NCBI GenBank assembly: GCA_021796315.1
Contig: JAJYOH010000179.1
Coordinates: 1-10,105, forward strand
Length of the DNA: 10,105 bases
Source of the DNA: Chloroflexota bacterium
GTDB taxonomy: Bacteria > Chloroflexota > Anaerolineae > Anaerolineales > Villigracilaceae
Direction of reading: 5' to 3'
Shown here: piece by piece, positions 520 through 8,792 of the stretch
Layout of the letters: every line of letters starts with the position of its first letter
Numbering within the stretch: position 1 is the stretch's first letter
The notes under the pieces: generated by a model
Database searches by the model: none
What the model saw: the letters and a program-made list of their open reading frames with translations, nothing else
What the model was told of the DNA's origin: nothing
Position numbers and translations under genes: made by a program

Positions 520-804
520 CTATTCACTCTTGACAGCTTTTTCGGTCTTTGCGCTTTTTTCAACCGGCTTGCTTTCTTCTTTATCCTGCTTCCTTGCAGG
601 TTTTGTCGGTCCACTGCCGGATGGGGATTTGTGGTCAGTGGCATAGAAGCCGGAGCCTTTGAAGATGATTTTGGTTGGAGTGATAACTTTCTTAAGCGCC
701 TTCTTGCGGCATTCAGGGCAGGTTTTCAAAGGCGCATCGCTGAAGGACTGATGACGTTCGAACTGCACTCCACACGATTCGCACCGATAAGTATAAATTG
801 GCAT
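520..804 (-). CDS. FmdB-family zinc-ribbon protein
   Basis: A 94-residue protein starting MPIYTYRCESCG, the hallmark of the FmdB/CxxC_CxxC_SSSS family. Two CxxC knuckles (C8/C11 and C29/C32) form a small zinc ribbon. The segment LKKVITPTKIIFKGSGFY (about residues 37-54) is the conserved second half of the domain. Residues from about 57 onward are a low-complexity tail rich in Lys, Glu, Ser and Pro, probably disordered. The family was named after a putative regulator of formamidase, but its true role is not established; it is often called a regulatory zinc ribbon. Purine-rich AAGGAAAGAAGGAA just upstream of the ATG serves as ribosome binding site. The gene is divergent from the selenoprotein operon and ends in its own terminator. 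Confidence 0.92.
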   Translation of the reverse strand: MPIYTYRCESCGVQFERHQSFSDAPLKTCPECRKKALKKVITPTKIIFKGSGFYATDHKSPSGSGPTKPARKQDKEESKPVEKSAKTEKAVKSE

Positions 805-900: not shown

Positions 901-937
901 TTTCTAACGTTTGATATTAAACTGGAAGGTAGTAATA

Positions 938-1180
938 ATGCTCAAAATCGAGGTCGTTTATTGCGCGGTCTGACATTACACTGACCGGGCCGTGGGCCTG
1001 GCAAGCGAACTGCTCAAGAATTATGAGCATGTAATCGAAAGCGTAACCCTCGTTCCTTCGGACGGTGGCCGCTTCGATGTCAGCGTGAACGGGAAGTTGA
1101 TCTATTCCAAACTCGAGACCAAACGTCATGCCGAAGCAGGCGAGGTGCTGGGTCTTATTCATAAAATGGTGGAAGGATAA
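938..1180 (+). CDS. SelW/Rdx-family selenoprotein (in-frame TGA = Sec12)
   Basis: The frame from ATG 938 to TAA 1178-1180 encodes 80 residues if the single in-frame TGA (971-973) is read as selenocysteine. The N-terminus reads MLKIEVVYCAVU, i.e. a beta strand followed by C9-A-V-U12, the CxxU redox motif of the SelT/SelW/SelH (Rdx, thioredoxin-like) family. After the TGA the family pattern continues: an ASELL helix, then VTLVPSDGGRFDVSVNG, LIYSK and an EAGEVLGLI helix. Full length (about 80) is normal for bacterial members. GGAAGG at 924-929 lies 8 bases before the ATG. A SECIS-like hairpin follows the TGA. Without recoding, only a fragment starting at GTG 992 would be called, lacking the active site. 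The family is thought to act as thiol/selenol oxidoreductases; the substrate is unknown. It is the first gene of the trpS operon, 8 bases before trpS. The alternative is a Cys-to-stop pseudogene; the hairpin argues against that. Confidence 0.88.
985..1001 (+). promoter_or_regulatory. Putative bacterial SECIS hairpin
   Basis: CCGGGCC (985-991) pairs with GGCCTGG (995-1001), giving seven base pairs (six Watson-Crick and one G-U) around a GUG loop (992-994). The loop starts 18 nt after the TGA at 971-973. Bacterial SECIS elements recognised by SelB lie within the coding region just after the UGA, with the apical loop roughly 16-37 nt downstream and a G among the first two loop bases. This hairpin meets these criteria. 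It is a hand fold without energy calculation. Confidence 0.75.
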
Positions 1181-1188
1181 TTAATCGA

Positions 1189-2175
1189 ATGGCAAAAAAG
1201 GGACGAGTTTTTTCCGGCGCCCGCCCAACGGGACGCCAGCATCTTGGTAATTATTTGGGAGCGATCCAAAATTATGTTGCGTTGCAGGACGAGTATGAAT
1301 GTGTTTATTGCATCGTTGATATTCACGCGTTGACCACGGTGGAGGATACGCTTAATTTAAAGCAGAATACTTATGAGATGGCGCTCGACTGGCTGGCTGC
1401 CGGCATTCGCCCTGACGAGACGATCATGTTCATTCAGTCGCATGTGCCTGAAGTGATGGAACTGCATACGTTGTTGTCCATGGTCACGCCGCTCGGTAAA
1501 TTGACTGACCTGCCGACTTTTAAAGAGAAAGTCCGTCAACAGCCCGAGAATGTGAACTATGGTTTGGTTGGTTATCCGGTGTTGATGACGGCAGATATCG
1601 TGCTTTATAAAACAGATGTGGTGCCGGTTGGTATCGACCAGGCTCCACACATCGAGTTTGCGCGCGAGATCGTGCGTTCGTTCAACTATCGTTATAAGAC
1701 CAATGCTTTGATCGAACCACAGATGAAGAACACCAAAATCCCCAAGGTGCTCGGCATCGATGGCAAGGAAAAGATGGGGAAGAGCCTCAATAATCATATT
1801 GAGTTGGCGGCCACGCCCGAAGAGACGACCAAGCGCGTGCGCGAAATGGTCACTGACCCGGCGCGCATTAAACGTACTGACCCTGGCAACCCCGATGTGT
1901 GTAATGTCTTTACCATGCACAAGATTTTCTCGCCGCAGGATGAAGTGGACATGATTAACGTCGAATGTCGCCGCGCGGGCATCGGATGTGTGGATTGTAA
2001 AATGCGTTTTGCCGCCAACTTGAACAAAGGCCTTGAGCCGTTCCGCGCCAAACGCGTCGAGCTCGACGCCAGGCCGGATGCCGTTCAAGATATTTTGAAC
2101 GATGGCGCCAAACGTGCGCGCACCATTGCCCGGCAGACGATGGCTGAAGTGCGTGAAGCGATCCAATTACCATAG
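1189..2175 (+). CDS. trpS: Tryptophan--tRNA ligase, [4Fe-4S]-motif type
   Basis: A 328-residue class I aminoacyl-tRNA synthetase that charges tRNA-Trp with tryptophan in the cytoplasm. The start of the Rossmann fold carries the HIGH-type signature as PTGRQHLGN (residues 13-21), and the KMSKS loop appears as KMGKS (195-199). Both are typical of bacterial TrpRS. The GIDQAPHIEFARE segment matches the family tryptophan/ATP-site region. Four cysteines, C238, C260, C267 and C270, are spaced C-x21-C-x6-C-x2-C. This is almost the pattern that binds a [4Fe-4S] cluster near the anticodon-binding region of Thermotoga maritima TrpRS. ATG 1189 is 8 bases after the selenoprotein stop and can use GGAAGG at 1171-1176, so the two genes are very probably co-transcribed and translationally linked. 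Length is normal. Confidence 0.97.
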   Translation: MAKKGRVFSGARPTGRQHLGNYLGAIQNYVALQDEYECVYCIVDIHALTTVEDTLNLKQNTYEMALDWLAAGIRPDETIMFIQSHVPEVMELHTLLSMVTPLGKLTDLPTFKEKVRQQPENVNYGLVGYPVLMTADIVLYKTDVVPVGIDQAPHIEFAREIVRSFNYRYKTNALIEPQMKNTKIPKVLGIDGKEKMGKSLNNHIELAATPEETTKRVREMVTDPARIKRTDPGNPDVCNVFTMHKIFSPQDEVDMINVECRRAGIGCVDCKMRFAANLNKGLEPFRAKRVELDARPDAVQDILNDGAKRARTIARQTMAEVREAIQLP

Positions 2176-2251: not shown

Positions 2252-2689
2252 ATGCGTCTCTTAATTCAACGAGTTTCTCGTGCCAGCGTTACCGTTAACG
2301 GACAGGTCATTTCCAAAATTGGAAAAGGCCTGTTGATCCTATTGGGCATCGGTCATGGCGATGGGGATGAACAGGCGAGCTTTCTGGCGGAGAAAGTTGC
2401 CAACTTGCGGATCTTTGAAGATGAACAGGGCAAGACGAATTTGTCCGTGTTGGATGTGAAGGGCGATGCCATTGTTGTTTCGCAATTCACGCTTTACGCC
2501 GACGCACGCAAGGGACGCCGCCCATCGTTCACCGACGCGGCCTTGCCGGAAATCGCCGCGCCGCTGGTGGATCGCTTCGTCGAATTGCTGATCGGTCACG
2601 GCGTCCCGACCCAGACCGGAAAATTTGGCGGGCACATGGAAGTGGAAATCCATAATAATGGGCCGGTCACGATCTGGTTGGAAAAATAG
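2252..2689 (+). CDS. dtd: D-aminoacyl-tRNA deacylase
   Basis: A 145-residue DTD-fold protein, full length. It hydrolyses D-amino acids (and glycine mischarged on tRNA-Ala) from tRNA, a proofreading step that keeps D-residues out of proteins. The N-terminus [15 protein letters not shown] is the family signature. The active-site motif SQFTLY is at residues 77-82, and the cross-subunit Gly-cisPro motif is within GPVT (137-140). These two motifs form the chiral-selective pocket of the homodimer. No Shine-Dalgarno is evident before ATG 2252. It lies 76 bases after trpS on the same strand, so it is probably in the same operon. The pairing with a tRNA synthetase is functionally sensible, since TrpRS is among the enzymes able to mischarge D-amino acids. 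Confidence 0.97.
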
Positions 2690-3932: not shown

Positions 3933-3975
3933 TGTCTTTGTAAGATGCAAGTAGGTTTTCGTTGGAAGTAATGCG

Positions 3976-4011
3976 ATGGCTCAAAGCAAGTCTGCTTTGA
4001 GCCATTTTTTT
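3976..4011 (+). terminator. Strong rho-independent terminator upstream of csp
   Basis: A perfect 13-bp stem (3976-3988 with 3993-4005), a 4-base loop AGTC and a T-tract at 4005-4011. It ends the operon whose last gene stops at 3856, or a short RNA begun near 3939, or it attenuates transcription into the cold-shock gene. Confidence 0.93.
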
Positions 4012-4069
4012 GACCACCGATGAACGCATACTGCGTCAAAATATTTTCTTTTTGTCTAAGGAGGCAAAA

Positions 4070-4279
4070 ATGTCAGAACGTGTAATCGGTACGGTCAAAT
4101 GGTTCAACGGTGAAAAAGGCTACGGCTTCATCGCCCGCGAAGGCGGCCCGGACGTTTTCGTCCACTACTCCGCCATCGAAAGCGAAGGCTTCCGCAATCT
4201 TCAGGAAGGCCAGAAGGTGGAATTCTCCATCGAAAAGGGCCCCAAAGGTTTGCAGGCCGCCGCAGTCAAGCCCGTCTAG
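4070..4279 (+). CDS. csp: Cold-shock domain protein (CspA family)
   Basis: A 69-residue single cold-shock domain, the standard length. It binds single-stranded RNA and DNA and melts mRNA secondary structure, acting as an RNA chaperone. The RNP1 motif is in KGYGFI and RNP2 in VFVHY, preceded by the family signature GTVKWFN. The end ...[13 protein letters not shown] is also canonical. The start is ATG 4070, fixed by a near-perfect Shine-Dalgarno TAAGGAGG (4057-4064). A longer frame from TTG 4010 overlaps the upstream terminator T-tract and is not credible. Just upstream is a small hairpin (ACGCA/TGCGT, 4024-4036). No convincing promoter lies between the upstream terminator and this gene, which suggests read-through or regulated antitermination. 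Its own terminator follows the stop. Confidence 0.97.
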
Positions 4280-4298
4280 TAATTTGACTTGACACACG

Positions 4299-4335
4299 AA
4301 CAACTCGTCCATCTCGGACGAGTTGTTTTATTTTT
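4299..4335 (+). terminator. Rho-independent terminator of csp
   Basis: A perfect 12-bp stem (4299-4310 with 4316-4327), a 5-base loop ATCTC, then TTTTATTTTT-type sequence to 4335. The stop codon of the converging minus-strand gene (4328-4330) lies inside the T-tract, so the two transcription units meet with no spare sequence. Confidence 0.93.
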
Positions 4336-8033: not shown

Positions 8034-8792
8034 ATGGCAACGTCAGACGATAAGCAAAAGAAAAGTGTAGTGGATCGTTTTCATACCATTCTTTCAAATG
8101 AAAAAATTGACAAGGAATCGGATGAACATCCCAAGCCCCATGTCCTTGACCGCTTGCCGAAGAAGACCAAACCCGCAGACGTTTCCATCAATCAGCCTGC
8201 GCCTCCTTCTCCGGACTCTCAAAGCGGTTCCCGTTTAACAAATAACCGCTTCCTCCCAGCCTTTTGGACGGTTGCCAGTGCACTTTCGTTAACCGTCAAT
8301 CTTCTTTTAATAATTGTGCTTGGCATCGTACTGTTAAAAGGAAACGCTCTTGGGATCGGTAACGGCCTGCTCGGCGGACTCTACTCCAACTTTGAGCTGA
8401 TGGATCAGGCACATATTAAAGCTGCGATCCCGGTCCAAACGAACATACCTTTAAATCTTTCCATTCCCGTTCAAACTACCACGGGCATCACGTTGGCACA
8501 GGATGTGGCTATTACAGGCGCTCATGTGAAGATCAATACGCCGTTGTTCAATATCGATGCGCCTGCTGATGTCACTCTTCCAGCAGGGACATCGCTCAAT
8601 GTCGTTTTGAATTTCACTGTCCCAGTCCAAACGACTGTGCCGGTCACGCTCAATGTGCCTGTGGATATTCCTTTACAGAATACGGAATTGCATCCTGCCA
8701 TCACCGGGCTTAAAGATACGATCAAACCGCTTTATTGCATGATCAATCCATTTGCCTTGTCGCTCAATGGAGGCATGATTTGCACTCCATAG
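8034..8792 (+). CDS. Single-pass membrane protein with PVQT repeats, function unknown
   Basis: A 252-residue protein. ATG 8034 follows GAGGAGG (8023-8029) and is preferred over ATG 8001. Residues 1-75 are hydrophilic, Lys/Asp/Pro-rich and probably disordered and cytoplasmic; the short motif V-[VL]-D-R occurs twice in related form (VVDRF 12-16, HVLDRL 36-41). A single transmembrane helix spans about residues 78-101. A short Gly/Leu-rich stretch and a helix follow. The outer part (about 130-220) is a run of alternating hydrophobic/Thr strands built from I/V-P-V-Q-T units (133-136, 145-148, 197-200) and related IPL, VPV and VPVDIPL steps. It looks like a beta-rich repetitive ectodomain. Two late cysteines, C235 and C250, could form a disulfide. 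I do not recognise the family. There is no obvious terminator before the next gene's promoter. Confidence 0.85.
   Translation: MATSDDKQKKSVVDRFHTILSNEKIDKESDEHPKPHVLDRLPKKTKPADVSINQPAPPSPDSQSGSRLTNNRFLPAFWTVASALSLTVNLLLIIVLGIVLLKGNALGIGNGLLGGLYSNFELMDQAHIKAAIPVQTNIPLNLSIPVQTTTGITLAQDVAITGAHVKINTPLFNIDAPADVTLPAGTSLNVVLNFTVPVQTTVPVTLNVPVDIPLQNTELHPAITGLKDTIKPLYCMINPFALSLNGGMICTP

Follow-up and report, generated by a model that had tools for sequence, protein, structure and literature searches.

A very probable selenoprotein W gene of an uncultured Chloroflexota bacterium, with a SECIS hairpin register that appears to have moved within its lineage

The TGA codon at 971–973 of the window, the 10,105-nucleotide stretch of DNA analysed here, very probably codes for selenocysteine (Sec), a rare amino acid, in a small redox protein of an uncultured Chloroflexota bacterium. 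We read the gene, selW, as encoding a SelW/Rdx oxidoreductase with the active site C9-x-x-U12 whose UGA is decoded as Sec by the ordinary bacterial route, and put the probability of this reading at about 96%. SelA and SelD would make Sec-tRNA(Sec), SelB would bind a hairpin at 985–1001 and bring Sec-tRNA(Sec) to the ribosome at the UGA, and Sec would be inserted at codon 12. The resulting thioredoxin-fold protein would act as an oxidoreductase through C9-x-x-U12, presumably by thiol/selenol redox exchange. The observations behind this reading are the frame, the conserved TGA, a hairpin that shows codon constraint and a certain amount of covariation, Sec machinery in relatives, and a predicted fold. 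The gene and its signals are as follows.

924–929, plus strand: Shine-Dalgarno sequence GGAAGG, 8 nt 5' of ATG 938.
938–1180, plus strand: selW, predicted 80-residue Rdx-family selenoprotein (from the frame, the Rdx PF10262 match and the conserved TGA).
971–973, plus strand: TGA, very probable Sec codon, the U of CxxU (from the frame and relatives).
985–1001, plus strand: predicted bSECIS hairpin, stem CCGGGCC/GGCCTGG, loop GTG at 992–994 (from the bSECIS model and codon shuffles).
992–1180, plus strand: 62-aa open reading frame, the standard gene-caller product, whose GTG start is the predicted SECIS loop.

From ATG 938 to TAA 1178–1180 the frame runs through 80 codons with the TGA of codon 12 as its sole internal stop, which gives the active-site motif C9-A-V-U12. 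Pfam Rdx (PF10262) matches residues 3–75 with 71.6 bits (cut-off, 22.6; E=6.2e-20), and TIGR02174 (SelT/SelW/SelH) scores 57.6 bits against a curated cut-off of 34.2. Among solved chains, the closest in sequence is that of the Vibrio SelW-related protein 2p0g (E=1.5e-8), and mouse SelW, 2npb, matches with E=0.045. An AlphaFold model built from 12 sequences with Cys in place of Sec (pLDDT 91.3) has the order strand-helix-strand-strand-strand-helix plus a short helix, and predicts a thioredoxin-like fold in which CxxU lies between strand 1 (residues 2–9) and helix 1 (residues 12–32). SelW-type entries rank first among its PDB matches: the best is 2p0g (TM 0.87), and six bacterial entries (2p0g, 2fa8, 2obk, 3dex, 2ojl, and 2oka) supply all 21 matches at E≤0.001. 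The profile matches and the predicted structure thus bear out the assignment to the SelW/Rdx family that had been made in the sequence-only reading.

Relatives were collected by a scan of GTDB species genomes with patterns from which the Sec codon was absent. The scan returned 48 loci in 47 genomes, i.e., going by record titles, 40 loci from Chloroflexota (Anaerolineae-type or unspecified Chloroflexi; L001–L040) and eight from Actinobacteria, Poribacteria, Planctomycetes, and Dehalococcoidia (L041–L048). TrpS places the window with L001, of genome G001 (support 99/98, 94% identity). Three genes flank selW in the window.

520–804, minus strand: FmdB-family zinc-ribbon protein, divergent upstream neighbour (TIGR02605).
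1189–2175, plus strand: trpS, tryptophanyl-tRNA synthetase (TrpRS) with an Fe-S type motif, 8 nt 3' of the selW stop.
2252–2689, plus strand: dtd, D-aminoacyl-tRNA deacylase (TIGR00256).

Among the 40 Chloroflexota loci, trpS lies 3' of selW in 37, dtd downstream in 34, and a divergent FmdB-type gene upstream in 20; several of the contigs end close by. The window TrpRS carries C-x21-C-x6-C-x2-C at Cys 238, 260, 267, and 270, and the four-cysteine motif recurs in 31 of 36 neighbouring TrpRS. This agrees with C-x(21-24)-C-x6-C-x2-C, the motif of the anticodon-binding region of Fe-S TrpRS, as given in the accessible part of PMC2954223, and by motif the window enzyme classes as an Fe-S TrpRS with a putative cluster. 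Both the linkage and the shared motif would suit a SelW that serves as dedicated partner of this TrpRS, keeping its cluster or thiols reduced. Yet the adjacent TrpRS is motif-less in five of the 36 cases, four of which are a different TrpRS (34–37% identity), and two loci (L019 and L040) have dtd with no trpS match beside selW. Furthermore, no trpS, dtd, or FmdB-type neighbour was seen in L041–L048 (0/8) or in the about 1.5-kb flanks of L061–L090 (0/30). Since the five TrpRS without the motif keep the linkage, we do not infer a functional partnership, which we regard as improbable. No paper tying bacterial selenoprotein W to a trpS operon was found in the open-access literature.

The neighbourhood offers some further observations. 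The different, motif-less TrpRS occupy the same place in L018, L025, L027, and L033, an apparent in-place replacement. The FmdB reading frame at 520–804 has no in-frame TGA; an FmdB-family gene is presented as a new selenoprotein in a figure legend of PMC2398784, in the part of that paper available. An Rfam cspA thermoregulator match (RF01766; 86.9 bits, gathering score 78) at 3952–4330 lies over a cold-shock gene and may reflect coding sequence rather than a conserved thermosensor. The protein encoded at 8034–8792 has a hydrophobic stretch and repeated VPVQT-like pieces with no NCBIfam match, and its gene recurs in the same gene order in 10 of the 40 Chloroflexota loci.

Returning to the selenoprotein itself, its annotation has been missed much as the sequence-only reading anticipated: a standard caller gives only the 62-aa frame from GTG at 992–1180, without the active site. 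Among the best 120 of 683 homologues, 109 are 56–65 aa long, P0010 being one that shares the start of this frame, and the remaining 11 are 79–99 aa long. The report of gene callers is what speaks for a real 62-residue protein translated from GTG 992, with the upstream part untranslated. Such a product would lack both CxxU and strand 1 of the AlphaFold model, it has no GGAGG-like site 5' of its GTG, and this GTG is itself the loop triplet of the predicted SECIS hairpin. In addition, the 11 codons ahead of the TGA are conserved as protein among relatives. The 62-aa frame is therefore probably not a real product, and we consider it very improbable as a rival to the full-length selenoprotein. The present reading restores the active site to a protein mostly listed in this lineage as a short fragment.

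The equivalent of codon 12 is TGA in 48 of 48 related loci (47 genomes), with the protein conserved on both sides, as would be expected from the earlier claim that this is the Sec position. Single loci show other irregularities, namely, a second in-frame stop (L015), a stop close to the match end (L025), and an internal repeat (L017). An even sample of 298 genomes of the class to which G001 belongs gave 134 Rdx matches in 129 genomes; 128 of these matches have exactly one stop, always TGA, six have no stop, and none has an in-frame TAA or TAG. Of 30 class matches fetched as loci, 27 have TGA and three have TGT (L061, L062, and L086). At this position, for which the sequence-only reading had called for a comparison with Rdx homologues, all 48 related loci have TGA and these three stop-free ones have Cys. 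These Cys-type Rdx genes occur in the same class. The genome of L061 (G199) has tRNA-Sec and no SelB match at E≤1e-70, and may be a case of Sec-to-Cys change.

A Cys-to-stop pseudogene or a sequencing error, in which the TGA would derive from TGT or TGC in a gene that is dead or misread, would draw on the single substitution that separates TGA from the Cys codons, on the TGT forms of those three loci, and on the second stop in L015. It fails because the TGA is common to all 48 related loci, across Chloroflexota, Actinobacteria, Planctomycetes, and Poribacteria and with both sides conserved; the 128 single-TGA matches against zero with TAA or TAG in the class sample and the conserved hairpin also stand against it, and we give it next to no weight.

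The TGA would imply that the organism has Sec machinery, and a search for selA, selB, selC, and selD in relatives agrees with this. G001 has all four, with tRNA-Sec at 69.8 bits, SelB at 352 bits, SelA at 538 bits, and SelD at 349 bits, the last itself with one in-frame TGA. Across the 47 genomes, SelB is over the cut-off in 43 (vs 2 of 14 control genomes) and tRNA-Sec exceeds 60 bits in 40. The 60-bit line was used because the gathering score, which 42 of the 47 genomes reach, is also reached by 5 of 14 controls, and two of those 42, G032 and G034, reach it with only 47–48 bits. SelA was found in 18 and SelD in 19 of the 20 genomes G001–G020, every SelD match with one TGA, and SelD was also found in 21 of 21 further genomes. 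G006 is the sole genome of the 47 that lacks both tRNA-Sec (>60 bits) and SelB; it has SelA and SelD matches.

In the class sample, SelB (E≤1e-70) is present in 239 of 298 genomes and strong tRNA-Sec (E≤1e-10) in 225, further evidence that many members of this Chloroflexota class use selenocysteine. SelB accompanies TGA-Rdx in 120 of 126 genomes vs 119 of 172 others (Fisher p=4e-9), and tRNA-Sec does so in 108 of 126 vs 117 of 172 (p=6e-4), both p values ignoring shared ancestry and assembly gaps. Neither component was found in three of the 126 TGA-Rdx genomes; assembly gaps may explain these three and G006. In the three class genomes whose Rdx matches are all stop-free, SelB gives no match at E≤1e-70, and tRNA-Sec is present in two of them. 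From its relatives, we infer that the window organism itself has the machinery. Reassignment of TGA to tryptophan (code 4), which would make codon 12 Trp, has in its favour the Trp at this position in the database translations of all 11 long homologues fetched (among the best 120 of 683), but this is explained by gene calling with TGA read as Trp and is what such a caller prints, the window's named genes are open across their family matches under table 11, relatives carry Sec machinery, and stop-free homologues (L061, L062, and L086) have Cys there, which leaves the Trp reading with hardly any probability.

A bacterial selenoprotein gene is also expected to carry a bSECIS element, and the window has a candidate. 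The bSECIS model allows a loop of 3–9 nt with a G in the first two positions, a stem of 4–16 bp, a spacing of 16–37 nt, and an energy of −7.5 kcal/mol or lower (PMC13188914, in the sections accessible). We applied it to the window and the 48 related loci with the energy taken as that of the bare hairpin. The window hairpin, CCGGGCC[GUG]GGCCUGG, has 7 bp and −11.4 kcal/mol and lies 11 nt (stem) and 18 nt (loop; spacing 18) from the TGA, within every limit of the model. The best bSECIS hairpins of the 49 loci average −8.78 against −3.63 for synonymous shuffles, the lowest of 100 shuffled set means being −4.46, and −7.5 is reached in 37 of the 49 loci vs 13.8% of synonymous shuffles. When the window sequence itself was shuffled synonymously, 11 of 2000 versions were as stable at the same place. 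The −7.5 line is missed by 12 of the 49 bare hairpins, including that of L001, the closest relative, and by 24 of 27 further TGA loci. Plain minimum-energy folding of the region gave p<0.05 in 9 of 49 loci (control stretches, 7/49, 2/49, and 8/48) with a mean z of −1.17 (controls, −0.44, 0.14, and −0.32). Such folding with codon shuffles was too blunt, and we relied on the explicit bSECIS model and an axis scan instead.

The axis scan uncovered two hairpin registers among 76 TGA genes, i.e., the window, the 48 related loci, and the 27 further loci. With UGA counted as nt 1–3, the better hairpin is centred on nt 23 in 26 genes, all in the window's group and the window among them, and on nt 27 in 48 genes, Actinobacteria and Planctomycetes records included; L047 and L048 have a hairpin at neither place. 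Over whole-number centres 18–37, the means at a group's own centre are −8.8 (nt 23) and −7.5 (nt 27), and the next best are −1.0 and −0.7, a contrast that is partly built in by grouping on these two centres. Codon shuffles at the group centres average −0.81 (nt 23) and −1.93 (nt 27).

Changes on both sides of a stem pair occur at two pairs (6 cells) among the 26 nt-23 genes and at three pairs (10 cells) among 17 of the 48 nt-27 genes; read in the opposite register, the groups yield 1 and 0 cells, respectively. Against shuffled partners, the cells are equalled in 1 of 500 (nt 23) and 0 of 500 (nt 27) shuffles and the covariation score in 0 of 500 for both. Counted as pairs that change on both sides, the nt-23 group does not exceed shuffled partners (300 of 500 reach its value) and the nt-27 group does so weakly (23 of 500), and pair types are not above shuffled partners in either (145 of 500 for nt 23; 494 of 500 for nt 27). 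There are thus some compensatory changes among relatives that share the window's register.

Of the two registers, only nt 27 is seen outside the 40 Chloroflexota loci, and it is therefore probably the ancestral form; the window probably carries the derived one. On a TrpS tree of 33 rows, from which the four loci with a different TrpRS were left out, the register label needs two changes, where one is possible. Three nt-27 sequences (L032, L036, and L038) can pair in both registers, which suggests a bistable intermediate. We consider it rather likely that the SECIS hairpin of this one orthologous gene moved 4 nt closer to the UGA while the Sec codon stayed unchanged.

The selD of these genomes is also a TGA-containing gene. 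In 42 selD loci (L093–L130 and L134–L137), 24 from genomes with nt-23 and 18 from genomes with nt-27 selW, the mean hairpin energy is lowest at nt 38 for both sets (−9.5 and −8.9, respectively, as raw means). The hairpin there is the best in 39 loci and among the top three in 40, with a loop that is mostly GUN, and is absent in L116 and L135. A second, weaker mean lies at nt 22.5 (−4.0 and −3.9 in the two selW groups). A lineage-wide change in the spacing preference of SelB was considered as the cause of the register shift and is unsupported, as the strongest mean selD hairpin sits at nt 38 whichever register selW has. Because selD hairpins mostly stay there, the shift looks local to selW. One SelB would then have to accommodate two spacings within a genome, and three over the lineage as a whole. 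If this holds, the register variants constitute a natural experiment on how far SelB tolerates differences in the UGA-to-SECIS distance, with ready variants for testing the rigidity of this spacing. No paper using the phrase "SECIS position" or "SECIS shift" was found in the open-access literature.

The SelW-like family is long known and common in bacteria, and the SECIS register is a modest new detail. The novelty that the sequence-only reading had seen in the gene was overrated: SelW-like Sec proteins are among the commonest bacterial selenoproteins (PMC2398784, in its accessible portion), and the machinery is common in the class, with SelB in 239 of 298 sampled genomes. Published surveys, cited here from the available parts of their texts, list 10 SelW-like selenoproteins, Cys homologues being few or absent in organisms that use Sec, and count three selenoproteins in Chloroflexi (PMC1794560), report 427 Sec and 56 Cys SelW-like sequences as the most abundant family in ocean samples (PMC2398784), and assign 11.3% of 4324 selenoprotein genes to SelW-like proteins (PMC9402790). 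The family is listed with PF10262 and CxxU (PMC9312934), and some SelW genes of epsilonproteobacteria have likewise been missed by annotation (PMC4607533), again as far as the accessible text of these sources goes. A dedicated account of selW in Anaerolineae or Chloroflexi was not found in the open-access literature.

Among profiles and structures, the window protein has its best NCBIfam match by E-value in NF041051 (SelTWH_Campy; 79.4 bits), yet stays under the curated cut-off of 88 of that model. The bacterial SelW-related structures 2p0g, 2fa8, 2obk, and 3dex have the same fold as the window model (TM 0.76–0.87) but are only 25–31% identical to the window protein, with chains of 103–107 residues vs 80. 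The predicted hairpin spans the same nucleotides as the SECIS of Escherichia coli fdhF (nt 15–31 with UGA as 1–3, 11 nt from the UGA), and in both the apical loop contains a G and a U (PMC8659212, in the part accessible). It differs from that element, as described there, in its three-nucleotide GUG loop, in G/U one place earlier, and in having no bulged U17. With other bacterial SelW-like selenoproteins, as the same partial sources describe them, the window gene has in common the Rdx domain, CxxU, the in-frame UGA, and a downstream bSECIS, and Cys forms are few in Sec-using organisms, as in the window's relatives. It is set apart by its host, an uncultured Anaerolineae-type Chloroflexota bacterium, by the usual position of selW upstream of trpS-dtd in its group, and by a hairpin register that appears to have moved 4 nt within its lineage.
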